NCBI GenBank assembly: GCA_937864045.1
Contig: CALMIF010000173.1
Location: forward strand, 1-38,124
Reading direction: 5' to 3'
DNA: 38,124 nt
Origin: an uncultured Aquabacterium sp.
Lineage (GTDB): Bacteria > Pseudomonadota > Gammaproteobacteria > Burkholderiales > Burkholderiaceae_C
Shown: positions 10,109 to 36,843 of the stretch, piece after piece
Numbering within the stretch: position 1 is the stretch's first letter
Layout: each line of letters begins with the position of its first letter
Made by a program: the position numbers and the translations under genes
The notes under the pieces: model-generated
Databases searched by the model: none
Told to the model about the DNA's origin: nothing
The model's input: only the letters and a program-made list of their open reading frames with translations

Positions 10109-10122
10109 CGGAGAGCTCCCCG

Positions 10123-11358
10123 ATGAAACTCGCGATCGAAGGCTGGCGCGGCGTGAATCACTCGTTCGCGCTGGTCAACCAGTGCCAGATCCTGGAGCTG
10201 CTGCGCCAGCCCGGCCTGCAGCTGTTCCACCGCGACATGCCCTTCGCGATGGCGCACTGGAACGCCCAGTCCCACGATGCCGGCTTCGCACCGGAGGACT
10301 GCGCGCGCATCGCCGCGCTGCCCGATCCGCAGGGCCAGGCGGTGGATGCCATCTACCGCATCTGCTCGCCATTCCGCACCGGCGCCGAGGATGCGCAGCG
10401 CGCCGCCACGCCGACCATCCACTTCATGGTCACCGAGATGGGGCTGTCGGCCAGGAGCTTCGAGCCCGGTGCCGAGCATTCCGATGCCTTCACCCGCGAC
10501 GCCAACCTGATCGTCACGCCCACCCGCTGGTCGCGCGAGCGCCTGCTCGAATGGGGCTATGCGCCGGAGAAGGTGCACGTCGTCAGCCACGGCGTCAATG
10601 CCCAGACCTTCCGCCCGCTGCTGGCCGACGAGCGGGCCCTGAACCGCCGCAACCTCGGCTTCGACGACGGCCACTGCGTCTTCCTGAACCTGGGCGCGGC
10701 GATGTGGAACAAAGGCCTGGACGTGCTGCTGCTGGCCTATGCCACCCTGCGCCAGAAGCACCGCCACCTGCGCCTGGTGCTGAAGGACCAGCGCAACCTC
10801 TACGGCGTGGGCATGGACGGCACGATCAAGGCGCTGTGCCAGAGCCATCCGCAGCTGTTCACCGCCGAGGTGCTGGGCTCGATCTCGATGGTCACGGCCA
10901 ACCTGAGCCAGGCCCAGCTGCGCGCGCTCTACGCGATGGCCGACTGCTATGTGTCGCCCTACCGGGCCGAGGGCTTCAACCTGCCGGTGCTGGAGGCCAT
11001 CGCCTGCGGCACGCCGGTGATCGTGACCGACGGCGGCGCCACCGACGACTTCTGTTCGCCGGCGGTGGCGATGCGCATCGACAGCACGCCCCGCACCCTG
11101 GACGATCCCGCCGCCGGCCGGCTGGCCCGCTACCGCGAGCCCAGCCTCGATGCCACCGTGCAGGCCATGGACTGCGTGGCGCAGGGGCAGGGCATCCGCC
11201 GCGGCCTCGCGCTGGACGCCGCCTGCGCGGCCCTGGTGCGGGCCATGGGCTGGGCGCCCCCCGTGCAGCAGCTGCTGGCGCTGCTGCAGCAGCAGGCCGG
11301 TCGGCCCGTGCCGGCTGCCGCCCCCGCGCACCGGCCCGAGCCGGCGCTGGCCGACTGA
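10123..11358 (+). CDS. Glycosyltransferase family 4 protein
   Basis: 411-residue GT-B glycosyltransferase, expected to be cytoplasmic and to retain configuration. The C-terminal half holds the GT4 EX7E motif (E283 and E291 in AEGFNLPVLEAIACGTPVI). An N-terminal acceptor domain contains the VTPTRWSRERLLEWG segment typical of GT4 proteins. GGAGAG at 10110-10115 lies 7 nt before the chosen ATG; an in-frame ATG at 10105 overlapping the tolC stop would add six residues. The donor sugar is unknown. It follows the secretion genes directly, so it may extend a sugar on the exported protein, or act on an O-antigen-like glycan. Confidence 0.88.
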   Translation: MKLAIEGWRGVNHSFALVNQCQILELLRQPGLQLFHRDMPFAMAHWNAQSHDAGFAPEDCARIAALPDPQGQAVDAIYRICSPFRTGAEDAQRAATPTIHFMVTEMGLSARSFEPGAEHSDAFTRDANLIVTPTRWSRERLLEWGYAPEKVHVVSHGVNAQTFRPLLADERALNRRNLGFDDGHCVFLNLGAAMWNKGLDVLLLAYATLRQKHRHLRLVLKDQRNLYGVGMDGTIKALCQSHPQLFTAEVLGSISMVTANLSQAQLRALYAMADCYVSPYRAEGFNLPVLEAIACGTPVIVTDGGATDDFCSPAVAMRIDSTPRTLDDPAAGRLARYREPSLDATVQAMDCVAQGQGIRRGLALDAACAALVRAMGWAPPVQQLLALLQQQAGRPVPAAAPAHRPEPALAD

Positions 11359-15838: not shown

Positions 15839-15881
15839 TTCCGCGTTTTGGCCGCTGACCTGCGTGGCTAGACTGCCATGC

Positions 15882-17006: not shown

Positions 17007-17032
17007 ATGCCTTCCCGGACCACCACCGCCCC

Positions 17033-18358: not shown

Positions 18359-18381
18359 CGCCGCTGCGGACGGCGCGCACC

Positions 18382-20558: not shown

Positions 20559-23500
20559 TCAGATCAGCGGCGTGCTGTTCTGCAGCCGCAGCAGCTCGTC
20601 GTCCAGGCTGGTCTGCTTCGGCGCCCCGGTTGCGGCTTCGGCCGGTGCGGCGGCCACCGTGGTCGTCGCTGCCGCGCCGCCCACCAGGTCGGTGTGCGCC
20701 GGGGCCAGCAGGTCCTCGATCTGCGGCACCGGGCTGCTCATGGCCTTGGTGAACCAGACGTCGGCCATCTCGTGGGTCTGGCCGTCGGTGGTCTTGTAGC
20801 CCGAGACCATGCCCACCAGGTTGCCGTGGTCGACGCGGTCGGACAGCGCGTAGTTCAGATCCAGCTCGGCCACGCCCATCTCGACCAGGCCCTTGAGCTC
20901 GCCGATGTCGGTCTTGCCGTCTTGGTTGGCGTCGACCCAGAGCTTGAGCTGGCCGAACGCGGCGTCGCTGGCGGTCAGCTTGCCGTCGTGGTTCTGGTCC
21001 AGCGCGGCCATCGCGGCGTAGCCGTTGCCGGCGCGTGAGCCGTCGGCCAGCTGCGTGGCCGAGCCGAACAGCTCGCGGCCGTCGCTGATCACGCCGTCGT
21101 GGTTCAGGTCGCGCACCAGCAGCGCATCGCCGCCCGCCACCCAGCCGACCTGGCTGGTCTTGCCGCTGGCGTTGAGGTCGAACTGCACGCCCTGGCTGGC
21201 CGCCAGCGTGGACACGCCGTTGCCGTCCAGGTCGATCACGATCGGCGACACGGCCGCCATCGCGTCGCGCTGGGGCTGGGTCATCGCCGTCTGCTGCGCG
21301 GCGGTGAAGGCCATCGACTGCACCGCCGACATGCCGGCGATGTCGGCCACGTCCAGCGCCTGCACCTGGGCGGTGGTCAGCGCGGCGATCTGGCCCACGG
21401 TCAGGCTGGCCGCCTGGTCGCCGGTCAGGGCCTGGATGTCGGCCGTCTCCAGCCAGGTGATCTGCTGGGTGGTCAGCCCGGCGATCTGCGTCAGCGTCAG
21501 CGCCTCGACCTCGGTGGTGGTCAGGGCGCGGATCTGGGCGCTTGTGAAGGCCTGCAGCTGCGGCACGCCGAAGTCGGTGATGTCCGCCGCACCCAGGGCC
21601 GCGATGTCGGCGGTCTCGATCGCCCGCACCTGGGCCGAGGTCAGCGCACCCATCTGCTCCCAGGTCATCGCCTTGAGGTCGGCGCTGTCCATCGCCGCGA
21701 AGTCGGCGCTGGCGAAGGCGCGGATCTGGGCGGTGCTGAGCGAGGCCAGGTCCAGGCTTTCCAGCTGCTGCACCTGGTGGGTGGTCAGCGCGCCGATCTG
21801 GGCCGTGGTGAGCTGCTGGAACTGGTAGTCCGTCAGCGCGTTCAGGTCCTCGGTGGTCAGGCCCGCGACCTGCGCCGTGGTCAGCCCGTGCAGCTGGGCC
21901 GCGCTGAGCGCCTGGAACTGGTCGCTGCCCATCGCCGCCAGCTGGCCGGTGCTCAACTGCGCGATCTGCGCGCTGCTCCAGCCGGCCAGGGCATCGATGC
22001 CGATGGCGCCGATGTCGGCCGTCTCGATCGCCCGCACCTGGGCCGTGGTCAGGGCGGCCAGCTGGTCGACGGTGAGCGCCGCGACGTCCGCGCTGTCCAT
22101 CGCCGCGATGGCAGCGGTGGTGATGGCGCGGATCTGCACCGCGCTCAGCGCCTGCAGGTCGGTGCTCTCCAGCTTGCTGACCTGGGCGGTGGTGATCGCG
22201 GCGATCTGCGCCGTGGTGAGCATCGCGAACTGGCCGGCGGTCAGCGCGTTCAGGTCGTCGCTGGCCAGGCTGGCGACCTGGGTGGTCGTCAGGCCCGCCA
22301 GCTGCGCGTCGCTGAGCGCCTGCCACTGGTTGCTGCCCAGGGCGCCCAGCTGGCCGGTGCCCAGCTGGCCGATCTGGCTGCCGCTCAGGCCGGCCAGCGC
22401 GTCGACCCCGATGGCGCCGATGTCGGCGGTCTCGATCGCCCGCAGCTGGCTGGAGGCCAGCGCCGCGAGCTGCTCGCCGGTCAGCGCGGCGATGTCCGCG
22501 CTGTCCATCGCGGCGATGGCGTTGCTGGTGATCGCCCGCACCTGCAGCGCGCTCAGCGCCGCCAGGTCGGTGGACTCCAGCTTGCTGATTTGCGCCGTGG
22601 TGATGGCCGCGATCTGCGCCGTGGTCAGGGCCTGGAACTGGCTGTCGCTCAGCGCGTTCAGGTCATCGGTGGCCAGCGTCGCGATCTGCGCCGTGGTCAG
22701 CGCCTGCAACTGGCCGGCGCCCAGGGCCTGCAGTGCCGACGAGCTGAGCGCGCCCAGCTGAACCGTGGTCAGCAGCGCCATCTGGGTGTTGCTGAGGCCG
22801 GCGATGGCGTCGCTGGTGATGCCGGCGAAGTCGGCGGCATCGATGGCGCGGATCTGGGCCGTGGAGAAGGCGCCCAGCTGCTCGCCGTTGAGCAGGGCCA
22901 GGTCGGCGCTGGTCAACGAGGTCATCAGCGCCGCGCTGAGGCCGCGCAGCTGCACCGCGCTCAGCGCCTGCACCTGGGCCGAGGTCAGGTTGTCGAGCTG
23001 GTCGCTGGCCAGCGCGCCGATCTGCGTGCTGCTGAAGGCGCCCAGGCTGTCGACCGCGATCACCGCCAGGTCACGCGTCTCCAGCGCCCGCATCTGGGCG
23101 GTGGTCAGCGCGGCCAGCTGGTCGGCCGTCAGCGCGGCCACGTCGGCGGTGTCCAGCGCCACGATGTTGGCCGTGGTGATGGCCCGCACCTGCGCCGCCG
23201 TCAGCGACGACAGGTCGGTGCTGGTCATGCTGCTGAGCTGCAGGCTGGTCAGGCCGGCGATCTGGGCCGTGCTCAGGCCCTGGAACTGGGTGTCGGTCAG
23301 CGTGTTCAGCGTGGTCGGGGTCAGCGCCGCCAGCGAGGCGACGGTGATGCCCTGCAGCTGCTCGGCGGTCAGCGCCTGCAGCTGGTCGCTGCCGAGGTTG
23401 CTGAACTGCGCCGTCGTCAGCGCGCCGATCTGCGCGCCGCTGAAGCCGGTGATCACGCCCGGGTCGATGGCGGCCAGGTCGGCCGTCTCGAAGGCGCGCA

Positions 23501-26500
23501 TCTGGCTGGTGCTGAACGCGCCCAGCTGCTCGGCCGTGAGGGCCTGCATGTCGGCCGTGTCGAGCGCCACCAGGTTGGCGGTGGTGATGGCCCGCAGCTG
23601 GGCGGCGGTCAGCGCGCTCAGGTCGTCGCTGGCCATGTTGCTGATCTGCGCGCTGGTGAGGCCGGCGATCTGCGCGGTGGTCAGGGCCTGGAACTGCGTG
23701 GCCGTCAGCGTGTTGAGGTTGCTGGTGCTCAGCGCGGTGATCTGCGCCACCGTCAGCCCGGCGAGCTGGCCGTCGGTGAAGGCCTGCATCTGGTTGCTGC
23801 CCAGCGCGGCCAGCTGGGCCGTGGTCAGCGCGCCCAGCTGGGCCGCCGTCAGGTTGGTGATGTTGGGCGCGCTGATGGCGCTGATGTCGGCGGTCTCGAT
23901 GGCCTGCAGCTGCGCCGCCGACAGGGCGGCCAGCTGGTCGCCGGTGAGGGTGGCGACGTCGGCACTGTCCATCGCGGCGATGTTCGCCACGGTGATGGCC
24001 CGCATCTGCGCGGCCGTCAGCGCGCTCAGGTCGGCCGTCTCCAGGCTGCTGATCTGCTCGGTCGACAGGCCGGCGATCTGCGCCGTGGTCAGCGACTGGA
24101 ACTGCAGCGCCGTCAGCCGGTTCAGGTCGGCGGTGCCCAGCGCGGCGATCTGGCCCGCGCTCATGCCCACGATCTGCTCGCCGGTCAGTGCTTGCAGCTG
24201 GGCCGAGCTGAGGTTGGTCAGCTGCTCGGTGGTCAGCGCGAAGATCTGCGCCGAGCCCAGCGCCGGAATGTTGGCGGTGCTGAGGCCGACCAGGTCGGCG
24301 GTCTCGATGGCACGGATCTGCACCGCGCTCAGCGCCTTCAGCTGGTCTTGCGTCAGCACGGCGATGTCGCCGCTGTCCATCGCGGCGATGTTGGCCGCGG
24401 TGATGGCGCGGACCTGCGCCGGCGTCAGGCCGGCCAGGTCGGCCGTCTCTAGGTTGCTGATCTGGGCGCTGCTCAGCGCGGCGATCTGCGCCGTGGTCAG
24501 CGCCTGGAACTGCGGCACCGTCAGCTTGTTCAGGTCGGCGGTGGACATCGACACCAGCTGCGGCGTCGTCAGGCCCTGCACCTGGGCGTCGGTCAGGGCC
24601 TGCAGCTGGGCGCTGCTCAGCGCGTCGAGCTGGCCGGTGGTCAGCGCGCCGATCTGGGCCGCGGTCAGGCTCTGCAGGCTGGCGGTGGAGATCGCGCCCA
24701 GGTCGGCGGTGTCGATCGCGCGCAGCTGGGCCGTGGTCAGCGCGGCCAGCTGGTCAGCGGTCAGCGCGCCGATGTCGCCGCTGTCCATCGCGGCGATGTT
24801 GTTCAGGCTGATCGCCCGCACCTGGGCGGCGGTCAGGCCGGTCAGGTCATCGGTGGCCAGGCTGCTGACCTGCAGGCTGGTCAGGCCGGCGATCTGCGCC
24901 GTGGTCAGGGCCTGGAACTGCGCCACCGTCAGCGTGTTCAGGTCGGCCGTGTTGAGCGAGGCGATCTGCGCCGTGGTCATGCCGCGCAGCTGGGTATCGG
25001 TCAGCGCGGTCAGGTGCGCCGTGCTCAGCGCATCGAGCTGGGCGCTGTTGAGCGCGGCGACCTGCACGCTGCTGAGCGTGGCGAAGTTGGCCGCGCTGAT
25101 GCCGCCGATGTCGCCGGTCTCGATGGCGCGCACCTGGGCGGTGGTCAGTGCCGCCAGCTGGTCGACCGTGAGGGCGGCCATGCCGGCGCTGTCCATCGCC
25201 GCGATGGCGCGGGTGCTGATCTGCGCCACCTGGGCGACGCTGAGCGCGGCCAGGTCGGTGGTCTGCAGGTTGGCCACCTGGTTGGTGGTCAGCGCGGCGA
25301 TCTGGGCCGTGGTCAGGGCCTGGAACTGGGTGTCGGTCAGGTCGTTGAGGTCGCTGCTGGCCAGCGCGGCGATCTGCGCCGTGCTGAGCGCACGCACCTG
25401 GCTGGCCGTCAGCGCCTGCATCTGCGCCGAGGTGAAGGCCGCCAGCTGGCTGGTGCCCAGCGCCGCCAGCTGGGCGCTGCCCATCGCGGCGATGGCGTCG
25501 GTGCTCAGGCCCGGCACGTCGCCGGTCTCGATCACCCGCACCTGCGCCGTGGTCAGCGCGACCACCTGGGTGGCGCCCAGGGCAGCCAGGTCGGCGCTGT
25601 CGAAGGCGGCGATGTTGCGGGTGGTGATCGCGGCGACCTGGGCCGTCCCCAGCGCGGCCAGGTCGGCGCTTTCCAGGTTGGCGGCCTGCGCGCTGGTCAG
25701 CGCGGCGATCTGCTCGGTCGTGAGGGTCTTGAACTGGTCGCTGGTGAACTGGTTCAGGTCGTCGGTGCTCAGCGCGGCGATCTGGGCCGTGCTCAGTGCG
25801 CGCAGCTGGGTGCTGCCCAGCGCCTGCATCGGGTCGGAGCCCAGCGCACCGAGCTGGCCGGTGGTCAGCGCCGCCAGCTGGGCGGTCGTCAGCGTGCCCA
25901 TCGCGTCGGTGCCCAGGCCGACGATGTCGGCGGTCTGGATCGCCCGCACCTGCTCGGTGGTCAGCGCGGTCACCTGGGCCGAGGTCAGCGCGGCGAAGTC
26001 GGCGCTGTCGAAGGCGACGAAGTGCGCCGTGCTCAGCGCGCGCAGCTGGGCGCCGCCGAGGGCGGCCAGGTCGCTGCTTTCCAGGTTGGCCGCCTGCAGC
26101 GTCGTCAGCGCGCCGATCTGCTCGGTGGTGAGGGCGGCGAACTGCTCGGTGGTCAGCGCGTTCAGGTCGCCGCTGGCGAGCTTGCCGATCTGCAGCGTGC
26201 TCAGGCCGCGCAGCGCGCTGGTGGCCAGGGCCTGCAGCTGGGCGCTGGTCATCGCGTCGAGCTGGCCGGTGGTCAGGGCCGCCAGCTGGCCGCTGCCCAG
26301 CAGGGCGACGGCGTCGGTGCCCAGGCCGGTGATGTCGGCGGTCTCGATGGCGCGCAGCTGGGCGCTGCCCAGCGCGCCGACCTGCGCCGTCGTCAGCGCG
26401 GCGATGTCGGCGCTGTCGAAGGCGGCGATGGCCCGGGTGCTCAGCGCGCCGACCTGGGCGCTGCTCAGCGCCTGGATCGAATCACTGGACAGGTTGACGG

Positions 26501-29500
26501 CCTGGGCGGTGGTCAGCGCCGCGATCTGCTCGCTGTCCAGGGCGCGCCACTGGGCGCTGGTCAGGCTGTTCAGGTCGTCGGTCGCCAGGGCCGCCACCTG
26601 CTCGGTGGTCAGGCCGCGCAGCTGGCCGGTGCTCAGCGCCTGCAGCTGGGCGGTGCTCAGCGCCGCAAGCTGGCCGGAGCTGAAGGCACCGAGCTGGCCG
26701 GCCGTGAGGCCGCGGATCGCGTCGGTGCTGAGGCCGGCGACGTCGGCGGTGTCGATGGCGCGGATCTGCGCCGTCGCGAAGCCGCCGATCTGGGTGGAGG
26801 TCAGCGCGCCGAAGTCGGCGCTGTCCATCGCGACGATGGCGCGGGTGCTGATCGCGGCGATCTGGGCCGTGCTCAGCACGGCCAGGTCCTCGCTCTGCAG
26901 GTTGGCCACCTGCGTCGTCGTCATCGCGGCGATCTGCTCGGCGCCCAGGGCCTTGAACTGGGCCGTGGTCAGGGTGTTGAGGTCGCTGCTGTCCAGGCTG
27001 GCGATCTGGGCCGTGCCCAGGGCGCGCACCTGGGCCGTTCCCAGGGCCTGCAGCTGGTCGCTGCCCAGGGCGGCCAGCTGGCCGGTGCCCAGGGCCTCGA
27101 TCTGCACCGCGGTCATGTTGCGCAGCGCGTCGGTGCTCAGGCCGCCGATGTCGGCGCTGTCGATGGCGCGCACCTGGCCGGTGGTCAGCGCCTGGATCTG
27201 GTTGGAGCCGATCGCGGCCAGGTCGGCGCTGTCCATCGCGGCGATGCCGCGGGTGGTGATCGCCGCCAGCTGGGCGGTGCCCAGCGCGTTCAGGTCGCTG
27301 CTTTCCAGGTTGGCGACCTGGTTGGTCGTGAGCGCGCCGATCTGCTCGGCCGACAGGCCGCGGAACTGGCTGGTGGTCAGCGTGTTCAGGTCGTCGGAGG
27401 ACAGGGCGGCGATCTGGCCCGTGCCCAGGCCGCGCAGCTGCAGCGTGGTCAGCGCCTGCAGCTGGTCGCTGCCCAGGGCACCGAGCTGGCCGGTGGTCAG
27501 CGCGCCGAGCTGGGCGCTGTTGAGCGCCCGCAGGGCCTCGGTGGTGATGGCGGCGACGTCGGCGGTGTCGATGGCGCGAAGCTGCGCGCTGGACAGCGCG
27601 GCCAGCTGGGCCGAGCCGATCACCGCGATGTCAGCGCTGTCGAAGGCGGCGATGTTGCGCGTGCCGATCGCCTGCATCTGTGCCGGCGTCAGCGCGGCCA
27701 GGTCGGCGCTCTCCAGGCTCACCGCCTGGGCCGTGGTCAGCGCGGCGATCTGGTCGGTGGTCAGCGCGCGGAACTGCGCCGTGCCCAGCGCGTTCAGGTC
27801 GTCGCTGACCAGGCTGGCGATCTGGCTCGTCGTCAGGCCCTTCAGCGCCGACGTGGCCAGCGCGCCCAGCTGGTCGCTGCCCAGGGCGCCGAGCTGGCCG
27901 GTGGTCAGCGCGCCGAGGTGGCCGCTGCCCAGCGTGGCGAGCGCATCGGTGGCCAGGCCGACCAGGTCGACGGTGTCGATGGCGCGCAGCTGCTCGGTGA
28001 GCAGGGCGCCGACTTGGGCCGAGCTCATCGCGGCGAAGTCGGCGCTGTCGAAGGCGGCGATCGAGCGGGTGGTCAGCGCGCGGATCTGCGCGCTGGTCAG
28101 CGCGGCCAGGTCCTCGCTCTGCAGGTTGGCGGCCTGGGCGGTGCCCAGGGCGGCAAGCTGCGCGGCGGTCAGGGCGCGGAACTGCGCCGTGCCCAGTGCG
28201 TTCAGGTCGGTCGAATCCAGCGAGGCCACCTGGCTGGTGGACAGGCCGGCGACGCCGGCCGTGGTCAGCGCCTGCAGCTGGGCCGATGTCAGCGCCGCCA
28301 GCTGCGCGGTGGTCAGCGCGGCCACCTGCGCCACGCCCATCGCGCGCACCGCGTCGGTCGACAGGCCGTCCAGGTCGACGGTGTCGATGGCGCGGACCTG
28401 CGCGGTGCTCAGCGCGGCGACCTGGGCCGAGCCCAGGGCCGCGAAGTCGGCGCTGTCGAAGGCGGCGATGCTGCGCGTGCTCAGCGCGGCCATCTGGCCG
28501 GTGCTCAGCGCGGCCAGGTCGGTGCTCTGCAGGTTGGCGGCCTGCGCCGAGCTCAGGGCGCCGATCTGGGTCGAGGTGAGCAGGCGGAACTGGTCGCTGC
28601 TCAGCGCGTTCAGGTCGTCGGTGCCCAGGCTGGCGATCTGCGCCGTGGTCAGCGCACGCAGCTGGTTGCTGCCGAGCGCGGCGACCTGGTTGGAAGCCAG
28701 CGCATCGAGCTGGGCCGTGGTCAGCGCGCCGATCTGGCCGGTGGTCAGCGCCTTCAGCGCATCGGTGGTGATGGTGCTGACGTCGCCGGTCTCGATGACG
28801 CGCAGCTGGTCGGAGCTCAGCGCGCCGAGCTGGGCCGAGCTGAGCACGGCGAGGTCGGCGCTGTCGAAGGCGGCGATCTGGCGCGTGCTCAGCGCCTTGA
28901 TCTGGGCGGTGCTCAGCGCGGCCAGGTCGTCGCTGGCGAGGTTGGCGACCTGGTCGGTCGTCAGCGCGGCGATCTGCGCGGTCGTCAGCGCGCGGATCTG
29001 GCTGGTCGTCAGCGTCGCCAGGTCATCGCTTGCCAGGTTGGCGATCTGGCTGGTCGTCAGGCCGCGGATCTGGCCGGTGGCGATCTGCTGCAGCTGCGCC
29101 GTGGTCAGCGCACCCAGCTGGGCGGTGCTCAGCCCGGCCAGCTGGCCGCTGCTGAGCGCGGCCACGGCGTCGGTGCCCAGGCCGACGATGTCGGCGACGT
29201 CGATGGCGCGGATCTGGGCGCTCGTCAGCGACGCGACCTGGGCCGAGCCGAGCACGGCCAGGTCGTTGCTGTCGAAGGCGACGATGCTGGCGGTGCTCAG
29301 CGCCCGCACCTGGCCCGAGGTCAGCGCGGCGAGGTCGGCGCTCTCCAGGTTGGCGGCCTGCGCGGTCGTCAGCGCGGCGATCTGCGCCGAGCCGAGGGCG
29401 CGGAACTGGTCGCTGCCCAGCGCGTTCAGGTCGCCGCTGGACAGGCTGGCCACCTGCGCGGTGGTCAGCGCACGCAGCTGCGCGCTGTTGAGCGCCTGCA

Positions 29501-32500
29501 GCTGGCCGGCGCTCAGCGCGTCGAGCTGGGCGGTGGTCAGCGTGGCGACCTGCTCGCCGGTCAGCGCGCCCAGGTTGTCGGTGGACAGTCCGGACAGGTC
29601 GCCGGTGTCGATTGGGCGCAGCTGGGTGCTGGTCAGCGCGGCCAGCTGGGCGGTGGTCAGGGCGGCGATGTCGTTGCTGTCGAACGACGCGATGCCGGCG
29701 GTGGTGAGCGCGCGGATCTGCGCCGTGCTCAGCGCGGCCAGGTCGGCGCTGTCCAGGTTGGACACCTGGAAGGTCGTCAGCGCGGCGATCTGGCCCGAGC
29801 TCAGCGCGCGGAACTGGTCGCTGGTCAGCGCGTTGAGGTCGGCGGTGGTCAGGCTGGCGATCTGGGCCGTGCCCAGGCCGCGCAGCTGGTTGGGGGCGAT
29901 GGCCTGCCACTGGCTGGCGCTGAGCGCGGCGAGCTGGGCGCTGTCCAGCGCGGCCAGCTGGCCGCTGCCCAGGCCCTGCAGCGCGGTGGTGCCGAAGCCG
30001 GCGAAGTCGACCGCGTCGATGGCGCGCAGCTGGCTGCTGCCGAAGGCGGCCAGCTGGGCCGAGCTGAGCGCGGCGGTGTCGTTGCTGTCCAGCGCGGCCA
30101 GGCCGGCCGTGGCCAGCGCGCGGATCTGGCCGGTGGTCAGGGCCGCCAGGTCCTCGGTCTGCAGGTTGGCAACCTGCTGGGTGTTCAGCGCGCCGATCTG
30201 GGCCGAGCTCAGCGCCTGGAACTGCTCGCTGGTCAGCGTGTCCAGGTCGCTCGTGCCCAGGGAGGCGATCTGCGCCGTGGTCAGCCCGCGCAGCTGGGCG
30301 CTGCTCAGCGATTGCAGCGCGGTGGAGGTCAGCGCGTCGAGCTGGCCGGTGGTCAGCGCGCCCAGCTGGGCCGAGTTCAGGCCTCCGATGGTGCTGGTGC
30401 CGAAGGACGAGACATCGGTGGTCTCGATGACGCGCAGCTGCTGCGAGGTCAGCGCCACCAGCTGGGCCGAGGTCAGCGCGGCGATGTCGGCGCTGTCCAT
30501 CGCGGCCAGGGCCCGGGTCGACAGCCAGCGCACCTGCTCGGTGCTCAGCGCGGCGAGGTCGGCGCTTTCCAGGTTGGCGGCCTGCGCGGTGGTCAGCGCG
30601 GCGATCTGGGCCGAGGCCAGCAGCCGGAGCTGGTCGCTGGTCAGGGTGTTGAGGTCCTCGGTGGACAGGCCGGCGATCTGGGCCGTGGTCAGCGCACGCA
30701 GCTGGGCGGTGCCCAGCGCCTGCAGCTGGTTGCTGCCCAGGGCGGCCAGCTGGGCCGTCGTCAGCGCGCTGATCTGGCCGCTGCCCAGGCCGGCCAGCGC
30801 GGTGGTGCCGATGGCCGAGATGTCGGCCGTCTCGATGGCGCGCACCTGGGCGGTGCTCAGCGCGGCGAGCTGCTGCGAGGTGAGGGCGGCGACGTCGTCG
30901 CTGTCCAGGCCGGCGATGGCGCTGCTGTTCAGGCTGCGCAATTGGGCACTGCTCAGCGCGGCCAGGTCGGCCGACTCGAGGTTGGGCAGCTGCACGCTGG
31001 TCAGCGCGCCGATCTGGGCGCTGGTCAGCGCCCGGAACTGGTCGCTGCCCAGGCTGTTGAGGTGGTCGGTGGCCAGCGAGGCGATCTGCGCCGTCGTCAG
31101 GCCGCGCAGCTGGGCATTGCTCAGCTGCGTCAGCTGGTCGGTGCTCAGCGCCGCCAGCTGGGCGGTGGTCAGCGCGCCGATCTGGCCGCTGCCCAGGCCG
31201 GCCAGCGCGTCGCTGCCCAGCGCGCCCAGGTCGGCGGTGTCGATGGCCTTGATCTGGGTGCTCGACAGCGCCGCCAGCTGCTGCGAGCTCAGCGTGCCGA
31301 TCTCGGTGCTGCTCAGCGCCGCGATCGCGGCCGTGCCCAGCGCGCGGATCTGCCCGGTGCTCAGCGCGGCCAGGTCCTCGGTCTGCAGGTTGGCGATCTG
31401 GCGCGTGGTCAGCGCCGCGATCTGCGCCGAGGTCAGGGCCCGGAACTGGTCGCTGCCCAGGCTGTTGAGGTTGTCGGTGGACAGGCTGGCGATCTGGGCC
31501 GTGCCCAGGCCGCGCAGCTGGGCGCTGCTCATGCCGATCAGCTGGTCGGAGCCCAGGGCGCCGAGCTGGCCGTTGCTCAGCGCGCTGACCTGGGCACTGC
31601 TCAGGCCGGCCAGGGCGTCGGTGCCGATGGCGGCGAGGTCGCCGCTGTCGATGGCGCGCCACTGGGTCGAGGTCAGTGCGCCCAGCTGGGCCGAGCTGAG
31701 GATGGCGATCTGCGCGCTGTCCAGCGCGGCCAGGCCGGCGCTACTCAGGCTGCGGATCTGCGCGGTGGTCAGCGCGGCCAGGTCCTCGGTGGTGAGGTTG
31801 CGGACCTGGGCCGTCGTCAGCGCGCCGACCTGGCCGGTCGACAGCAGGCGGAACTGGTCGCTGGTCAGCGCGTTCAGGGCGCTGGTGGCCAAGCCCGAGA
31901 CCTGGGCGGTGCCCAGGCCGCGCAGCTGTGCCGCGCCCAGGGCCTGCCACTGGTCGGAGCCCAGCGCGGCGAGCTGGGCGCTGGTCATGACCGCCAGCTG
32001 GCCGCTGCCCAGCTGGCTCAGCGCCTCGGTGCCGATGGCGGCGATGTCCTCGCTGGAGATGGCGCGCACCTGCGCGGTGGCCAGCGCGGCCAGCTGGCGC
32101 GGGCTCAGCGCGGCGATGTCGGCGCTGTCCATCGCGGCGATGCCGGCGGTGGTGATGGCGCGCAGCTGGGCGCTGCTGAGCACCGCCAGGTCGGCGCTGT
32201 CCAGGTTGGCGATCTGCGCCGTGGTGAGCGCGGCGATCTGGTTGCTGCCCAGGGCGGTGAACTGCGCGGTGGTCAGCGTGTTCAGCGCGCTGCTGCCCAG
32301 CGCGGCCAGCTGGGCGGCGCCGATGCCGCGCACCTGGGCGGTGCTGAGCACCTGCAGCTGGTCCGAGCCCAGCGCCTGCAGCTGGGCCGAGCTGAGCATC
32401 GCGATCGACGCGGTGCCCAGCGCGGCCAGCGCCTCCGTGCCGACGGCGGCGAGGTCGGCGGCGTCGATGGCGCGCACCTGCACCGAGGTCAGCGACGCCA

Positions 32501-33209
32501 GCTGGGCAGGCGTCAGCGCGGCGATGTCGGCGCTGTCCATCGCGGCGATGCCGCGGGTGCTGATCGCGCGCAGCTGGGTCTGGCTCAGCGCGACCAGGTC
32601 GCTGCTCTCCATGTTGGCCAGCTGGGTGGTGGACAGCGCGGCGATCTGCGCCGTGCCCAGCGCCTGCACCTGGCCCTCGGTCAGGCTGTTGAAGTCGTCC
32701 GACGACAGGCTCCCGAGCTGGGTGGTCGTCAGCGCACGCACCTGCTGGGTGGCGAACTGCTGCAGCTGCACCTCGGTCAGGCCAGCGAGCTGGGCCGAGC
32801 TCAGGCCGGTGACCTGCGCCGTGGTCAGCGCGGTGATGCGGTCGATGTTGAACGAGGCCAGCACCGAGGCGTCCAGCGCCCGGATCTGCGCCGAGCTGAG
32901 CGCCTGGAACTGGTCGCCGCTGAAGTTGGCGAGATCCTCCGCATCCAGCCCGGCCACGCCCGCCGCACTGATCGCCCGGATCTGGGCCGTGTTCATTACG
33001 CCGAAGTCGGTGGCGTCCATCGCCCGCAGCTGGCTGGAACTCAGCGCGGCCAGGCCGAGCGCCGGGATCGCGGGAATCTGCGCCGCCGTGAGCGCCGTGA
33101 TCTGCTCGGGCGTGAACACGGACCAGTCCGTGGCCTTCAGCGCTGCGATCTGCGCCGTGGTCATGGCGGCGATCTCGGCAGGGGTCAGGGTCTGGATGGT
33201 GGAGGCCAT
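20559..33209 (-). CDS. Giant octad-repeat protein with C-terminal calcium-binding type I secretion module
   Basis: 4216 residues, about 0.4 MDa. Residues 1-7 are followed by 497 unbroken 8-residue repeats (8-3983) of pattern L-[TSG]-[TS]-x-[QDE]-[LIVF]-x-[AGNS]. The tail (3984-4216) has IDLDGNG, then EF-hand-like loops at about 4034-4046, 4071-4082 and 4093-4104, and ends LDDELLRLQNSTPLI. Similar DLDGNG/ELFG modules close many large type I secreted proteins (from memory). No Sec signal, membrane helix, RTX nonapeptide or cysteine was found. Ser/Thr occur about twice per octad and acidic residues exceed basic ones. The start at 33209 follows AAGGA (33219-33223 on the + strand); an upstream ATG at 33299 would add 30 non-repeat residues. 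It is probably an exported surface or matrix protein linked to motility. The repeat family is not one I can name and the fold is unknown. Confidence 0.9.
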   Translation of the reverse strand: MASTIQTLTPAEIAAMTTAQIAALKATDWSVFTPEQITALTAAQIPAIPALGLAALSSSQLRAMDATDFGVMNTAQIRAISAAGVAGLDAEDLANFSGDQFQALSSAQIRALDASVLASFNIDRITALTTAQVTGLSSAQLAGLTEVQLQQFATQQVRALTTTQLGSLSSDDFNSLTEGQVQALGTAQIAALSTTQLANMESSDLVALSQTQLRAISTRGIAAMDSADIAALTPAQLASLTSVQVRAIDAADLAAVGTEALAALGTASIAMLSSAQLQALGSDQLQVLSTAQVRGIGAAQLAALGSSALNTLTTAQFTALGSNQIAALTTAQIANLDSADLAVLSSAQLRAITTAGIAAMDSADIAALSPRQLAALATAQVRAISSEDIAAIGTEALSQLGSGQLAVMTSAQLAALGSDQWQALGAAQLRGLGTAQVSGLATSALNALTSDQFRLLSTGQVGALTTAQVRNLTTEDLAALTTAQIRSLSSAGLAALDSAQIAILSSAQLGALTSTQWRAIDSGDLAAIGTDALAGLSSAQVSALSNGQLGALGSDQLIGMSSAQLRGLGTAQIASLSTDNLNSLGSDQFRALTSAQIAALTTRQIANLQTEDLAALSTGQIRALGTAAIAALSSTEIGTLSSQQLAALSSTQIKAIDTADLGALGSDALAGLGSGQIGALTTAQLAALSTDQLTQLSNAQLRGLTTAQIASLATDHLNSLGSDQFRALTSAQIGALTSVQLPNLESADLAALSSAQLRSLNSSAIAGLDSDDVAALTSQQLAALSTAQVRAIETADISAIGTTALAGLGSGQISALTTAQLAALGSNQLQALGTAQLRALTTAQIAGLSTEDLNTLTSDQLRLLASAQIAALTTAQAANLESADLAALSTEQVRWLSTRALAAMDSADIAALTSAQLVALTSQQLRVIETTDVSSFGTSTIGGLNSAQLGALTTGQLDALTSTALQSLSSAQLRGLTTAQIASLGTSDLDTLTSEQFQALSSAQIGALNTQQVANLQTEDLAALTTGQIRALATAGLAALDSNDTAALSSAQLAAFGSSQLRAIDAVDFAGFGTTALQGLGSGQLAALDSAQLAALSASQWQAIAPNQLRGLGTAQIASLTTADLNALTSDQFRALSSGQIAALTTFQVSNLDSADLAALSTAQIRALTTAGIASFDSNDIAALTTAQLAALTSTQLRPIDTGDLSGLSTDNLGALTGEQVATLTTAQLDALSAGQLQALNSAQLRALTTAQVASLSSGDLNALGSDQFRALGSAQIAALTTAQAANLESADLAALTSGQVRALSTASIVAFDSNDLAVLGSAQVASLTSAQIRAIDVADIVGLGTDAVAALSSGQLAGLSTAQLGALTTAQLQQIATGQIRGLTTSQIANLASDDLATLTTSQIRALTTAQIAALTTDQVANLASDDLAALSTAQIKALSTRQIAAFDSADLAVLSSAQLGALSSDQLRVIETGDVSTITTDALKALTTGQIGALTTAQLDALASNQVAALGSNQLRALTTAQIASLGTDDLNALSSDQFRLLTSTQIGALSSAQAANLQSTDLAALSTGQMAALSTRSIAAFDSADFAALGSAQVAALSTAQVRAIDTVDLDGLSTDAVRAMGVAQVAALTTAQLAALTSAQLQALTTAGVAGLSTSQVASLDSTDLNALGTAQFRALTAAQLAALGTAQAANLQSEDLAALTSAQIRALTTRSIAAFDSADFAAMSSAQVGALLTEQLRAIDTVDLVGLATDALATLGSGHLGALTTGQLGALGSDQLGALATSALKGLTTSQIASLVSDDLNALGTAQFRALTTDQIAALTTAQAVSLESADLAALTPAQMQAIGTRNIAAFDSADIAVIGSAQLAALSSAQLRAIDTADVAAITTEALRALNSAQLGALTTGQLGALGSDQLQALTTLQLRGLGTGQIAALSSDDLNTLTTSQFRGLSAEQIGALTTNQVANLESSDLNALGTAQLAAITTRGIAAMDSADLAAIGSNQIQALTTGQVRAIDSADIGGLSTDALRNMTAVQIEALGTGQLAALGSDQLQALGTAQVRALGTAQIASLDSSDLNTLTTAQFKALGAEQIAAMTTTQVANLQSEDLAVLSTAQIAAISTRAIVAMDSADFGALTSTQIGGFATAQIRAIDTADVAGLSTDAIRGLTAGQLGAFSSGQLAALSTAQLQALSTGQLRGLTTEQVAALATDDLNSLTSAQWRALDSEQIAALTTAQAVNLSSDSIQALSSAQVGALSTRAIAAFDSADIAALTTAQVGALGSAQLRAIETADITGLGTDAVALLGSGQLAALTTGQLDAMTSAQLQALATSALRGLSTLQIGKLASGDLNALTTEQFAALTTEQIGALTTLQAANLESSDLAALGGAQLRALSTAHFVAFDSADFAALTSAQVTALTTEQVRAIQTADIVGLGTDAMGTLTTAQLAALTTGQLGALGSDPMQALGSTQLRALSTAQIAALSTDDLNQFTSDQFKTLTTEQIAALTSAQAANLESADLAALGTAQVAAITTRNIAAFDSADLAALGATQVVALTTAQVRVIETGDVPGLSTDAIAAMGSAQLAALGTSQLAAFTSAQMQALTASQVRALSTAQIAALASSDLNDLTDTQFQALTTAQIAALTTNQVANLQTTDLAALSVAQVAQISTRAIAAMDSAGMAALTVDQLAALTTAQVRAIETGDIGGISAANFATLSSVQVAALNSAQLDALSTAHLTALTDTQLRGMTTAQIASLNTADLNTLTVAQFQALTTAQIAGLTSLQVSSLATDDLTGLTAAQVRAISLNNIAAMDSGDIGALTADQLAALTTAQLRAIDTADLGAISTASLQSLTAAQIGALTTGQLDALSSAQLQALTDAQVQGLTTPQLVSMSTADLNKLTVPQFQALTTAQIAALSSAQISNLETADLAGLTPAQVRAITAANIAAMDSGDIAVLTQDQLKALSAVQIRAIETADLVGLSTANIPALGSAQIFALTTEQLTNLSSAQLQALTGEQIVGMSAGQIAALGTADLNRLTALQFQSLTTAQIAGLSTEQISSLETADLSALTAAQMRAITVANIAAMDSADVATLTGDQLAALSAAQLQAIETADISAISAPNITNLTAAQLGALTTAQLAALGSNQMQAFTDGQLAGLTVAQITALSTSNLNTLTATQFQALTTAQIAGLTSAQISNMASDDLSALTAAQLRAITTANLVALDTADMQALTAEQLGAFSTSQMRAFETADLAAIDPGVITGFSGAQIGALTTAQFSNLGSDQLQALTAEQLQGITVASLAALTPTTLNTLTDTQFQGLSTAQIAGLTSLQLSSMTSTDLSSLTAAQVRAITTANIVALDTADVAALTADQLAALTTAQMRALETRDLAVIAVDSLGAFSSTQIGALASDQLDNLTSAQVQALSAVQLRGLSAALMTSLTSADLALLNGEQLGAFSTAQIRAIDAADFAGITSDAIAGLSNTQMALLTTVQLGALSSSALQALGAGQLQALTTAQIATLATDDLNALSDSQFQALTTAQIAAITTAQISKLESTDLAALSALQVRAITSNAIAAMDSADIAALTGEQLAALASSQLRAIETADIGAIGVDALAGLSGSQIGQLGTGQLGALGSNQWQALSDAQLAGLTTTQVASLASDDLNALTAGQFAMLTTAQIAAITTAQVSKLESTDLQALSAVQIRAITTAAIAAMDSADVAALTVDQLAALTTAQVRAIETADIGAIGIDALAGWSSAQIAQLSTGQLAAMGSDQFQALSAAQLHGLTTAQVAGLTTEDLNALTDYQFQQLTTAQIGALTTHQVQQLESLDLASLSTAQIRAFASADFAAMDSADLKAMTWEQMGALTSAQVRAIETADIAALGAADITDFGVPQLQAFTSAQIRALTTTEVEALTLTQIAGLTTQQITWLETADIQALTGDQAASLTVGQIAALTTAQVQALDVADIAGMSAVQSMAFTAAQQTAMTQPQRDAMAAVSPIVIDLDGNGVSTLAASQGVQFDLNASGKTSQVGWVAGGDALLVRDLNHDGVISDGRELFGSATQLADGSRAGNGYAAMAALDQNHDGKLTASDAAFGQLKLWVDANQDGKTDIGELKGLVEMGVAELDLNYALSDRVDHGNLVGMVSGYKTTDGQTHEMADVWFTKAMSSPVPQIEDLLAPAHTDLVGGAAATTTVAAAPAEAATGAPKQTSLDDELLRLQNSTPLI
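21261..33188 (-). repeat. 497 tandem 24-bp (8-codon) repeats
   Basis: The repeat region is 11928 bp, exactly 497 x 24. Parsing the whole protein by eye gave 24 leading octads, 23 full 17-octad units, one 13-octad unit, one 14-octad unit, three further full units and 4 closing octads, which sums to 497. Every octad keeps a hydrophobic residue at position 1 and nearly all at position 6. Position 2 or 3 Ser/Thr with Gln/Asp/Glu at position 5 resembles a helix capping box, so short helices are one structural option; a solenoid of short strands is another. Confidence 0.92.
23229..32612 (-). repeat. 23 consecutive 408-bp super-repeats (17 octads, 136 residues each)
   Basis: Within each unit octads have position-specific identities. 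Octads 1, 4, 7 and 14 are acidic ([ED]-S-x-D type), octad 3 usually lacks Gln at position 5, octad 8 carries Ala there, octad 12 ends in Gly, octad 15 has Phe or Trp at position 6, and octad 17 ends in Asn or Ser. The DNA period is visible directly: the complement of the acidic octad-4 motif recurs near 25585, 25993, 26401 and 26809. Three more full units lie at 21357-22580. Synonymous codons differ between units, so the copies are not recent identical duplications. Confidence 0.9.
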
Positions 33210-33323: not shown

Positions 33324-33350
33324 TTATCGGGAACGACGGCCAGGACTTAA
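33324..33350 (-). promoter_or_regulatory. Sigma-28-like promoter for the giant gene
   Basis: On the - strand the sequence reads TTAAGTCC-N11-CCCGATAA (-35 at 33343-33350, -10 at 33324-33331). The FliA consensus is TAAAGTTT-N11-GCCGATAA; the -10 matches 7 of 8 and the -35 5 of 8, with exact spacing. Transcription would begin near 33317, giving a leader of about 108 nt. The 317-bp gap 33210-33526 between the divergent genes holds this site and its partner at 33411-33437. Confidence 0.68.
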
Positions 33351-33526: not shown

Positions 33527-34687
33527 ATGAGTGCCCGCTTCGCCATGGCCGACGCCCAGGACCGCAACCTCCCCGCCTCAGAGAAGAAGATCCGCAAGGC
33601 CCGCAGCGAGGGCCAGGTGGCGCGTTCGCGCGACCTGGGCCACCTGCTGGCCGTGGGCGGTGGCGGCGCGCTGCTGGTGCTGGCGCTGCCACGCCTGACC
33701 GACTGGGTGGCCCGCCTGCTGGCCACCGGCCTGCGTTTCGACCTGCAGGCGCTGTCACAAACCGATGCAATGACGCGCCAGCTCGGCGCGCTGACCTGGG
33801 CCTGGATGGCGGTGCTGGTGCCGCTGGGCGCGGTCGCCACCAGCTTCGCCGTGGGCGGGGCGCTGGCCTCGGGCGGCTGGAACTTCACCCTCAAGCCGCT
33901 GGCGCCGAATTTCGGCAAGCTCAATCCGCTGGCCGGCCTGGGCCGCATGGTCTCGGGCCAGCACCTGGGCGACCTGGCCAAGGCCTGCTTCCTGGCGCTG
34001 GTGCTGGGCGTGGTGGGCGCCTTCTGGCTGTGGCTGCACCACGGCAGCTTCCAGAGCGCGCTGGCCATGCCCCTGCCCACCGCCCTGGCCCACACCGGCG
34101 GGGCCCTGCTCGACGGCCTGACCGGCCTGGTGGTGGTGCTGGCGCTGTTCGCCGGCATCGACGTGCCGCTGCAGCGCCGCATGCTGGCCAACCGGCTGAA
34201 GATGAGCCACCAGGAGGTCAAGCAGGAGCACAAGGAGGCCGAGGGCAACGTCGAGGTCAAGGGCCGCATCAAGGCGCGCATGCGCGAGATGGCCAGGAAG
34301 CGCATGCTGGCCGCCGTGCCCAAGGCCGACCTGGTGGTGATGAACCCCACCCACTACGCCGTGGCGCTGAAGTACGACGAGGGCCGCATGGCCGCCCCGC
34401 GCGTGGTGGCCAAGGGCGCCGACCTGCTGGCGCTGAAGATCCGCGACCTGGCGAAGGAGCACCAGGTGCCGGTGCTGCAGGCCGCCCCGCTGGCGCGCGC
34501 GCTGTACGCCCACACCGAGGTCGACCACGAGATCCCCGCCCGCCTGTTCGCCGCCGTGGCGCAGGTGCTGGCCTATGTCTACCAGCTGCGCGCCGCGATG
34601 GCCGGCCGCGGCCCCGCGCCGGCCGACCTGCCCAGCATCGACGTGCCGCCGGACCTCGATCCGCACAACGAGGCCGCGCCCGCCTGA
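33527..34687 (+). CDS. flhB: Flagellar type III export switch protein FlhB
   Basis: 386-residue inner membrane component of the flagellar export gate that switches substrate class from hook to filament proteins. It has four membrane segments (about 38-58, 90-115, 148-172, 195-215) and a cytoplasmic C-terminal domain with the autocleavage motif NPTH at 273-276. The N-terminal LPASEKKIRKARSEGQV segment is typical. A second in-frame ATG at 33545 (MADAQ) may be the true start; both have weak Shine-Dalgarno sequences. It is 11 bp ahead of flhA. Confidence 0.96.
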   Translation: MSARFAMADAQDRNLPASEKKIRKARSEGQVARSRDLGHLLAVGGGGALLVLALPRLTDWVARLLATGLRFDLQALSQTDAMTRQLGALTWAWMAVLVPLGAVATSFAVGGALASGGWNFTLKPLAPNFGKLNPLAGLGRMVSGQHLGDLAKACFLALVLGVVGAFWLWLHHGSFQSALAMPLPTALAHTGGALLDGLTGLVVVLALFAGIDVPLQRRMLANRLKMSHQEVKQEHKEAEGNVEVKGRIKARMREMARKRMLAAVPKADLVVMNPTHYAVALKYDEGRMAAPRVVAKGADLLALKIRDLAKEHQVPVLQAAPLARALYAHTEVDHEIPARLFAAVAQVLAYVYQLRAAMAGRGPAPADLPSIDVPPDLDPHNEAAPA

Positions 34688-34698
34688 GCCCCTGAACC

Positions 34699-36843
34699 AT
34701 GAATCCTCTGCTTCAACAGTTCAAGGCGCTGTTCGACGGCCTGGCCGGCCACCCCGCCGCCCAGCAGGCGGCCGCGAAGGTCGGCCTGAGCCTGCCCATC
34801 CTGCGCAGCCTGGGCGCGCCCATCTTCATCGTGCTGGTGCTGGCGATGATGGTGCTGCCGCTGCCGCCCTGGATGCTGGACCTGCTGTTCACCTTCAACA
34901 TCGCGATGGCGCTGATGGTGATGATGGTGGCCTCGCAGATGGTGCGCCCGCTGGACTTCGCCGCCTTCCCGGCGGTGCTGCTGGTCACCACGCTGCTGCG
35001 CCTGAGCCTGAACGTGGCCTCCACCCGCGTGGTGCTGATGGAAGGCCACACCGGCGCCGGCGCCGCGGGCAAGGTGATCGAGAGCTTCGGCCACTTCCTG
35101 ATCGGCGGCAACTTCGCGGTCGGCCTGATCGTCTTCGCCGTGCTGGTGGTGATCAACTTCATCGTCGTCACCAAGGGTGCCGAGCGCATCGCCGAGGTCG
35201 GCGCGCGCTTCACCCTGGATGCGATGCCCGGCAAGCAGATGGCGATCGACGCCGACCTGAACGCCGGCCTGATCGACGAGAAGGAAGCCAAGCGCCGCCG
35301 CCTCGAAGTGGGCGAGGAGGCCGACTTCTTCGGCTCCATGGACGGCGCCAGCAAGTTCGTGCGCGGCGACGCCATCGCCGGCATGCTGATCCTGGTCATC
35401 AACATCGTCGGCGGCTTCCTGATCGGCGTCATCAGCCACAACCTGAGTGCCGGCGACGCCGCCAACCACTACGTGCTGCTGGCCGTGGGCGATGCCCTGG
35501 TGGCGCAGATCCCGGGCCTGCTGATCTCGGTGGCTGCGGCGATGGTCGTCAGCCGCGTGGGCAAGGAGCAGAACATCGGCAGCCAGATCGGCGCCCAGGT
35601 GTTCGGCAGCAGCAAGGCGCTGGGCATCACCGCGGGCATCGTCGGCACGCTGGGGCTGATCCCGGGCATGCCCAACCTGGTGTTCCTGTTGATCGCCGGT
35701 GCCCTGGGCGCCCTGGCCTGGGGCCTCAAGCGGCGCGACAAGCTGGCCGCCGAGGCGCCGCCCGCGCCGCCACCCGACGCCCAGCCCGCCAATGCCGAGG
35801 CCAACTGGGACGACCTGGTGCCGGTGGACACCCTGGGCCTGGAGGTGGGCTACCGGCTGATCGCCCTGGTCGACAAGACCCGCGTGTCCGGCGGCAGCGA
35901 CCTGCTCAGCCGCATCAAGGGCGTGCGCAAGAAGTTCGCTGCCGAGGTGGGTTTCCTGCCGCCGGCGGTGCACATCCGCGACAACCTGGAGCTCAAGCCC
36001 AGCGCCTACCGCGTGCTGCTGCGCGGCGCCGTGGTGGGCGAGGGCGAGGCCTACCCGGGCATGCTGCTGGCCATCAACCCGGGCGGCGCCAGCATCAAGC
36101 TGCCGGGCACCGCCACCACCGATCCGGCCTTCGGCCTGCCCGCCACCTGGATTGAGGAGCGCCAGCGCGAAATGGCCCAAATGAATGGGTTCACCGTCGT
36201 TGATTGCGCGACCGTCGTGGCGACCCATCTTTCACACTTGATGCAAGTGAACGCAGCACGCCTGCTGGGCCGGGTGGAGACCCAGCAGCTCGTGGAGCAC
36301 GTCACGAAGCAGGCCCCCAAGCTCATCGAGGACGTGATTCCCAAAATGGTCGGCATCGCCACATTGCAGAAGGTGCTGCAGCTGCTGCTCGACGAGGGCG
36401 TGCACATCCGCGACATGCGCTCCATCGTCGAGTGCGTGGCCGAGAACGCGGCCCAGGTCACCGACCCGGTCGAGCTGGCCCGCCGCATCCGCGTGCACCT
36501 GGCGCCGGTGATCGTGCAGCAGATCTACGGGCCGACCAAGGAGCTGGACGTGATCGCCCTGGAGCCCGAGCTGGAGCGCCTGGTCACCCAGGCCCTGACC
36601 AGCCCGCACGGCGCGGCGCTGGACCCCGGCGTGGCCGACACCCTCACCCGCGAGGCCGCCAACACCGCCAAGAAGCAGGAAGACCTGGGCCAGCCCGCCT
36701 GCCTGCTGGTGCCCGACCCGATCCGCGTCCCCATGGCGCGGCTGCTCAAGCGCGCAGCGCCCCGCCTGAAGGTGCTGGGCCACAGCGAGATTCCTGAGAC
36801 CCATTCGATCCGCATCGGCAACATCATCGGGAGCGCCGCATGA
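34699..36843 (+). CDS. flhA: Flagellar type III export gate protein FlhA
   Basis: 714-residue export gate ring protein. The N-terminal half (to about 330) carries eight membrane segments and the conserved FHIPEP-family loop with RLSLNVASTRVVL, AMPGKQMAIDADLNAG and the acidic EEADFFGSMDGASKFVRGDAIAG region. The C-terminal cytoplasmic domain (about 370-714) docks chaperone-substrate complexes. Length is normal for the family. Its stop overlaps the flhF start (ATGA). Confidence 0.97.
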   Translation: MNPLLQQFKALFDGLAGHPAAQQAAAKVGLSLPILRSLGAPIFIVLVLAMMVLPLPPWMLDLLFTFNIAMALMVMMVASQMVRPLDFAAFPAVLLVTTLLRLSLNVASTRVVLMEGHTGAGAAGKVIESFGHFLIGGNFAVGLIVFAVLVVINFIVVTKGAERIAEVGARFTLDAMPGKQMAIDADLNAGLIDEKEAKRRRLEVGEEADFFGSMDGASKFVRGDAIAGMLILVINIVGGFLIGVISHNLSAGDAANHYVLLAVGDALVAQIPGLLISVAAAMVVSRVGKEQNIGSQIGAQVFGSSKALGITAGIVGTLGLIPGMPNLVFLLIAGALGALAWGLKRRDKLAAEAPPAPPPDAQPANAEANWDDLVPVDTLGLEVGYRLIALVDKTRVSGGSDLLSRIKGVRKKFAAEVGFLPPAVHIRDNLELKPSAYRVLLRGAVVGEGEAYPGMLLAINPGGASIKLPGTATTDPAFGLPATWIEERQREMAQMNGFTVVDCATVVATHLSHLMQVNAARLLGRVETQQLVEHVTKQAPKLIEDVIPKMVGIATLQKVLQLLLDEGVHIRDMRSIVECVAENAAQVTDPVELARRIRVHLAPVIVQQIYGPTKELDVIALEPELERLVTQALTSPHGAALDPGVADTLTREAANTAKKQEDLGQPACLLVPDPIRVPMARLLKRAAPRLKVLGHSEIPETHSIRIGNIIGSAA

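Follow-up and report, generated by a model that had tools for sequence, protein, structure and literature searches.

A giant ALTTAQ octad-repeat protein encoded between chemotaxis and flagellar genes in Aquabacterium: predicted fold, gene partners and a flagellar-type promoter motif

Introduction

Giant surface proteins exported by type I secretion systems (T1SS) are a known kind, which includes the LapA/BapA-type giant adhesins with their LapB-type T1SS. The protein described here resembles the latter in being giant and repetitive and in having an LssB/LapB-type ABC transporter in its locus, but differs from them in its predicted helical octads, which start at residue 8, in its GT41 glycosyltransferase partner and in its flagellar-type promoter motif. 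The repeat itself is already catalogued in Pfam as PF20080 (ALTTAQ_rpt), and no function or fold was found for it in the literature searched. To the known family name, the present analysis adds a predicted fold, gene partners and a promoter motif; as far as our searches of the literature go, the rule for the superhelix, the pairing with GT41 and the flagellar promoter motif are new. Relatives of the protein are labelled 'heme utilization protein', 'ICE nucleation protein' or 'hypothetical protein' in plasmid records. One of them, annotated as an ICE nucleation protein on plasmid pA of C. sphaeroides (R. sphaeroides) 2.4.1, likewise shares a single locus with GT41, ABC transporter and HlyD genes, but has 1561 aa and lacks both the C-terminal module and an upstream sigma-28-type motif.

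The analysed stretch of DNA (38,124 nucleotides of contig CALMIF010000173.1 from an uncultured Aquabacterium sp., hereafter the window) encodes a 4216-residue octad protein. The reading that we lean towards is that this protein is a glycosylated, type-I-exported superhelical rod, made together with the late flagellar genes and likely serving as a surface tether. If this were true, PF20080 would be given a fold and a regulon, together with an enzyme that modifies it and an exporter, and swimming and surface attachment would be joined in one regulon. It would also connect the O-glycosylation of proteins with type I secretion across alpha-, beta- and gammaproteobacteria and supply a model from nature for building very long helical rods.

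Results and discussion

Octad repeat and coding frame

The gene and its repeat array were located as follows.
20559..33209, minus strand: giant octad (ALTTAQ) protein gene, ORF from ATG, 4216 aa; Pfam PF20080, 2415 bits
21261..33188, minus strand: 497-octad array, residues 8-3983, with a 17-octad superrepeat and 3.40-octad periodicity; AlphaFold2 pLDDT 94 (three units)

The encoded protein has a mass of 422.5 kDa and a pI of 4.05, and would be 30 aa longer if an upstream GTG served as the start. As the original prediction had described, residues 8-3983 consist of 497 tandem octads in a single unbroken register, and the 4216-aa protein contains no Cys. The column counts agreed with the pattern that it had proposed for positions 1, 2-3, 5 and 6, with L/I/M/F at position 1 in 495/497 octads, T/S/G/D at position 2 in 423/497, T/S at position 3 in 393/497, Q/D at position 5 in 419/497 and L/I/V/F/M at position 6 in 478/497 (consensus L-[ST]-[ST]-x-[QD]-[LI]-x-A). 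The octads contain 856 Ser/Thr residues. Identity at a lag of 8 residues was 0.31, compared with a mean of 0.113 and a maximum of 0.125 in 1000 shuffles, and the 17-octad unit noted earlier was recovered as a higher-order repeat of 136 aa, with an identity of 0.55 at that lag, spanning most of the array.

When 25 units were compared, 37% of the single-base codon differences were synonymous in the octad frame versus 17-26% in the other five frames. Because synonymous differences between units were richest in its frame, the octad ORF is a real coding frame; the overlapping long ORFs of 3976 and 2766 aa on the opposite strand were taken as its shadows.

The original prediction had regarded the repeat as unassigned. 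This did not hold, because the octads are Pfam PF20080 (2415.1 bits against a curated cut-off of 26.4, in 158 stretches), and the claim is further undercut by a designed-type octad protein of like pattern in the PDB. The profile search that it had proposed thus returned a family name, to which a predicted fold can now be added, and not a family whose fold and function are established in the literature searched. The strongest clues to function, the GT41 partner and the flagellar-type promoter motif, were no part of the original prediction. In keeping with its statement that the repeat is neither RTX nor Ig-like, among six Pfam families at E 0.1 there were no RTX calcium-binding nonapeptide or Ig-like repeats. 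The best PDB sequence match, HeliScrew4 (9zem, E 6.8e-25), was compared by name and sequence, from which we judge it to be a designed protein. It shares tandem octads of like pattern across approximately 106 residues, but is a 120-residue chain, often with Pro at position 3, whereas the natural array has 497 octads with 17-octad superrepeats.

Two minor features of the arrays were also recorded. In 15 of 17 octad arrays (the window array and its relatives), Asn sequons fell short of the mean of the shuffles, and by eye the Asn of octad 7 was often followed by Glu or Gln.

Predicted fold and superhelical period

Structure prediction of two to three units, as suggested at the outset, was performed on three. 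For this triple unit, with 22 aligned in-window triple units as input, AlphaFold2 returned confident helices (pLDDT 94.0, pTM 0.79), with 51 helices in 51 octads, so that each octad is predicted to form one short N-capped helix. In helix-capping terms, and with the helix limits taken from the model, each octad would be a capped mini-helix in which position 2 acts as the N-cap, positions 2 and 5 form a capping box and positions 1 and 6 form a hydrophobic staple. The best Foldseek match of the model was mesothelin (E 3.5e-4), with a TM-score over the model of only 0.2-0.3, and mesothelin was absent from the best 60 of 93 sequence matches.

Octad identity was examined spectrally for periods between 2.05 and 9 octads. 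Of 23 arrays, which came from alpha-, beta- and gammaproteobacteria, 21 had their strongest peak at 3.38-3.43 octads; the exceptions were the two arrays of one genome (G027a and G027b). Since same-genus arrays share descent, the six arrays from outside the genus carry most of the weight. In these alpha- and gammaproteobacterial arrays, the two leading lags were 34 and 24 octads in Cereibacter, 27 and 17 in Pseudomonas, 17 and 34 in Rhodovastum, 27 and 10 in Rhizobium, 17 and 34 in Pseudorhizobium, and 24 and 14 in Niveispirillum. Expressed in turns of 3.4 octads, lags of 10, 14, 17, 24, 27 and 34 octads correspond to 2.9, 4.1, 5, 7.1, 7.9 and 10 turns, respectively, and superrepeats of 10, 17, 24, 27 and 34 octads thereby approximate whole turns. 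Over 425 octads of the window array, acidity had a phase of -16 degrees and basicity a phase of 138 degrees. The fifth harmonic held 56% of the acidity variance over the 17 columns (p 0.0013, column permutation).

The simplest account of these periodicities is a superhelix advancing by approximately 106 degrees per octad, with 27 residues per turn and oppositely charged faces. Given about 106 degrees between consecutive octads, 17 octads would make five turns, and with acidic and basic residues concentrated on opposite sides, the rods may be able to bundle. We consider it very probable, on the strength of the model, that the short helices of the array build up a long superhelical rod. The whole rod would comprise about 146 turns and measure 130-145 nm, assuming a rise of 0.9-1.0 nm per turn. 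The long regular extracellular rod that was originally envisaged is thereby supported as likely, by the AlphaFold2 model (pLDDT 94) together with the type-I-associated C-terminal module.

C-terminal module

Two features follow the octad array.
20754..21245, minus strand: SPM-like calcium-type module, residues 3989-4152; 6sjw, E 2.9e-38
20562..20612, minus strand: C-terminal tail with an acidic patch and PLI end, a possible type I signal; like the tails in relatives

The similarity of residues 3989-4152 to the FrpC self-processing module (6sjw, 6sjx) extends over nearly the whole module and substantiates the earlier description of a type I-like C-terminal module. The C-terminal tails were alike in 14 of 17 octad ORFs, the remaining three being fragments, and two of the 17 were fragments in which the module is missing. 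In Cereibacter, Rhizobium (two proteins), Rhodovastum and Pseudorhizobium, the octad proteins have no such module and end in octads.

A match of this strength (E 2.9e-38), combined with the retention of most calcium positions, would suit a clip-and-link RTX-type protein, whose module cleaves itself and cross-links to surface proteins. The calcium positions were mostly kept across the octad-protein modules, and when the four-site calcium positions were compared, the sole change in the window protein was D423 to N. Against this reading, Ser-Pro replaces the Asp-Pro clip site of FrpC in the octad protein, and Ser occupies the D478 position. The scissile Asp was replaced by Ser or Thr in all 15 readable octad proteins (window protein included), and the D478 position was not Asp in any of the 11 aligned proteins. 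In FrpC, clipping takes place at the D414-P415 bond (PMC7078468). Because the Asp-Pro is missing, the module is expected not to clip or cross-link, and we regard clip-and-link processing as extremely unlikely. In the preferred reading, that of an exported rod, the calcium-type module would fold outside the cell.

Gene neighbourhood, glycosyltransferase and exporter

The remaining genes recognised in the window were the following.
13-411, cheZ side, left border: cheY-like response regulator; its 132-aa homologue in relatives is a response regulator
438..1070, plus strand: cheZ, left border of the island; PF04344
1238..2791, plus strand: methyl-accepting chemotaxis protein (MCP); PF00015
3120..4925, plus strand: TPR and GT41 (O-GlcNAc-transferase-like) glycosyltransferase; PF13844, 1.8e-73
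4955..7267, plus strand: type I secretion ABC transporter, LssB/LapB type; TIGR03375, 729 bits, cut-off 693
7380..8597, plus strand: HlyD-type membrane fusion protein; TIGR01843, 310 bits, cut-off 209
8732..10108, plus strand: TolC-type outer-membrane protein; PF02321, TIGR01844 under its cut-off
10117..11358, plus strand: GT4 glycosyltransferase; PF00534
13104..13865, plus strand: GT2 glycosyltransferase; PF00535
14968..18358, plus strand: CDP-glucose route (glucose-1-P cytidylyltransferase, CDP-glucose 4,6-dehydratase, RfbH); TIGR02623, TIGR02622 and NF011936 over cut-off
33545..36843, plus strand: flhB and flhA at the right (flagellar) border, pointing away from the octad gene; flhA, PF00771

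The window thus reads cheY-cheZ-MCP-GT41-ABC-HlyD-TolC-glycosyltransferases-CDP-sugar genes, the octad gene on the opposite strand, and flhB-flhA-flhF; we take flhB, and flhF at 36840 after flhA, to be such from resemblance and gene order. The octad gene lay beside flhB and divergent from it in all 11 same-genus regions in which the octad start side was fetched. In a twelfth region (G005:C76) the octad start was missing and the neighbourhood was different. The cheZ-flhB gap in other genera measured 92-230 bp (G027, G031, G040, G047) or 1.7 kb (G032), and in G025 the two genes were on separate contigs, with cheZ sharing a contig with the GT41-T1SS-octad set. The simplest account is that, in this genus, the island was inserted between cheZ and flhB.

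Octads and a GT41 orthologue co-occurred strongly among 79 relatives (both in 22, octads only in 2, GT41 only in 1, neither in 54; Fisher 3e-16, with an orthologue threshold of at least 60% identity that was fixed after the table had been seen). The relatives with octads only were G031 and G043, and that with GT41 only was G017, a fragmented assembly. For relatives outside the genus, the respective numbers were 5, 2, 0 and 52 (4e-6). A point against a specific pairing is that some GT41 homologue was present at E 1e-60 in 40 of 80 genomes. An ABC gene followed directly on GT41 at 74 of the 80 named GT41 loci, three of the other six being contig ends, and PF20080 was detected in 24/24 of the genomes picked from these loci and tested. 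The distances between the partners varied, and the looser arrangements count against the preferred reading. The octad gene was far from flhB and within about 5 kb of GT41-ABC-HlyD-TolC in G027, G032 and G040, and such a close set occurred in one of 18 further octad stretches (G025). GT41 was accompanied by distant ABC and HlyD homologues in G005:C76 and Massilia, stood alone in G031, and was on a different contig from the octads, or more than 80 kb away from them, in G002, G003 and G015; G096 had HlyD and TolC about 20 kb away.

A plasmid collection contained 56 records matching the octad repeat, of which eight loci, including two near-identical Rhizobium loci, were opened. GT41 adjoined the octad gene in seven and was 4 kb off in the eighth (Niveispirillum), and T1SS genes lay within the opened stretch in four. 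The GT41 pairing is therefore wider than the T1SS pairing (8/8 versus 4/8 plasmid loci). Judged from this genetic pairing, the GT41 enzyme of the adjacent gene probably adds a glycan to the octad protein, and the island's LapB-type system is a strong candidate for its exporter.

The GT41 enzyme could instead glycosylate flagellin and leave the octad protein unglycosylated. BCAL0111 of B. cenocepacia reportedly glycosylates flagellin, and the island sits inside a flagellar/chemotaxis cluster. A table in the B. cenocepacia source lists BCAL0111, an O-linked N-acetylglucosamine transferase, together with flagellar genes (PMC3502180). However, GT41 is also close to the octad gene in R. sphaeroides, Rhizobium and Roseateles, whose loci have no flagellar gene annotated or found nearby, and flagellin as the recipient in place of the octad protein seems quite unlikely.

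The CDP-glucose route would make a 3,6-dideoxyhexose, for which the rod, flagellin or LPS are candidate recipients. Besides the CDP-glucose enzymes, positions 13889-20333 contain a reductase-like and two epimerase-like genes, all below cut-offs. A 309-aa protein encoded within the glycan block (12144-13073) had no Pfam or NCBIfam match, and G027 and G005 have homologues of it close to their octad loci.

Two tandem octad ORFs, each with its own C-terminal module and mostly pairing one short with one long ORF, were seen in Roseateles, Mitsuaria, Rhizobacter and G027 (loci L190-L191, L192-L193, L230-L231, L232-L233, L235 and L045-L046). Octad or module genes also lay near GT41 outside the main clade, in Massilia (L238-L239) and Hydrogenophaga (L157).

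Promoter motif and association with flagellar genes

One further feature was identified upstream of the octad gene.
33324..33350, minus strand: sigma-28-type promoter motif TTAAGT-N13-CCCGATAA, at -141 to -115 bp relative to the octad ATG

The motif TTAAGT-N13-CCCGATAA matched once in the window and in none of 100 shuffles. It belongs to a conserved block of the octad-flhB spacer, which reads T[CT]AAGT-N13/14-CCCGATA[AT] on the octad strand. The motif score was 13-14 of 14 in all 10 readable same-genus octad genes, from 11 flhB-adjacent loci, versus 31 of 5304 sequence pieces, a number that includes the octad sites themselves. A related exact motif occurred at 22 places in six genomes of the genus and at none in the reversed control. 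The genes behind it were CheY-like (5), FliS (4), FliD (1), CheW (1), MCP (1), octad (1), HD-type (3), GGDEF (1), DUF1631 (2) and DUF4394 (1), with nothing recognised in two cases, so that 12 of the 21 non-octad places preceded flagellar or chemotaxis genes. In other genera, the octad genes (n = 11) scored 11-13, the value of 11 being obtained for G040, G047 and both Rhizobacter loci. Here CTCAAGTT was exact in 7/11 loci, and both halves (CTCAAGTT then CCGAAA) were present in 5/11. The spaced motif CTCAAGTT-N11/13-CCGAAA was found at six places in five other-genus genomes, in front of three octad and three fliS genes, compared with four control hits in the same genomes. As both motifs were derived from octad upstream regions, their octad matches arise partly by construction, and independent support therefore comes from the non-octad genes found (12/21 and the three fliS genes of 3/3). 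Judged from the promoter motif rather than from a mapped start site, the octad gene is very probably controlled by sigma-28.

The flagellar gene flhA was present in 24/24 octad-bearing and 37/55 other relatives (Fisher 8e-4, phylogeny uncorrected). The octad gene has flagellar export genes in its vicinity in Rhodovastum, flagellins and flgE in Pseudorhizobium, and MCPs in P. asturiensis, and a 124-kb R. sphaeroides plasmid carries fliC-flaF-flbT and the rhamnose operon (PMC12363192). Against a flagellar link, the R. sphaeroides octad gene has no such motif upstream, and no flagellar genes were found near the Rhizobium octad loci. The Rhodovastum and Pseudorhizobium loci, which have no T1SS in the opened stretch, the position beside flhB in the genus and the late-flagellar-type motif would all suit an octad protein that is a flagellar part exported by the flagellar type III apparatus, with the T1SS serving a different substrate. 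However, the FrpC-like module and the acidic-hydrophobic tail suit type I substrates, R. sphaeroides and both Pseudomonas plasmids have T1SS genes in their octad loci, and the GT41-ABC order (74/80 loci), with PF20080 in all 24 such genomes tested, also speaks against type III export, which we consider very unlikely.

Because the gene carries a late-flagellar-type promoter motif, swimming cells are likely to make the octad protein, and the rod, likely exported by the type I system, could then serve them as a surface tether. No adhesion domain was found in the protein, and this role is proposed tentatively. The rods might instead pack side by side as a glycosylated S-layer-like or sheath coat on the cell or flagellum. 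The opposite acidic and basic phases, the O-antigen-type CDP-sugar genes in the island (as at the Caulobacter RsaA locus) and the late-flagellar-type motif are in keeping with a coat. Octad protein lengths of about 1100 to 6700 aa between species would be odd for a lattice subunit, and no S-layer or anchor domain was among the Pfam matches; a coat is thus judged unlikely. Returning to the tether, its boldest form would make ALTTAQ proteins a new appendage class, a single-chain glycosylated alpha-helical screw of up to hundreds of turns with a dedicated GT41 and type I exporter, co-expressed with the flagellar filament, its charged faces zipping rods together as the landing gear of a swimmer. 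This is speculative and, taken as a whole, rather doubtful.

Genome G014, from the same genus, yielded no hit for any of flhA, flhB, cheZ, GT41 and octads, which would fit a joint loss of motility and rod. Among the non-octad genes behind the late flagellar motif in the genus, those encoding DUF1631 (twice) and DUF4394 (loci L199, L215 and L205) are possibly unnoticed members of the late flagellar regulon.
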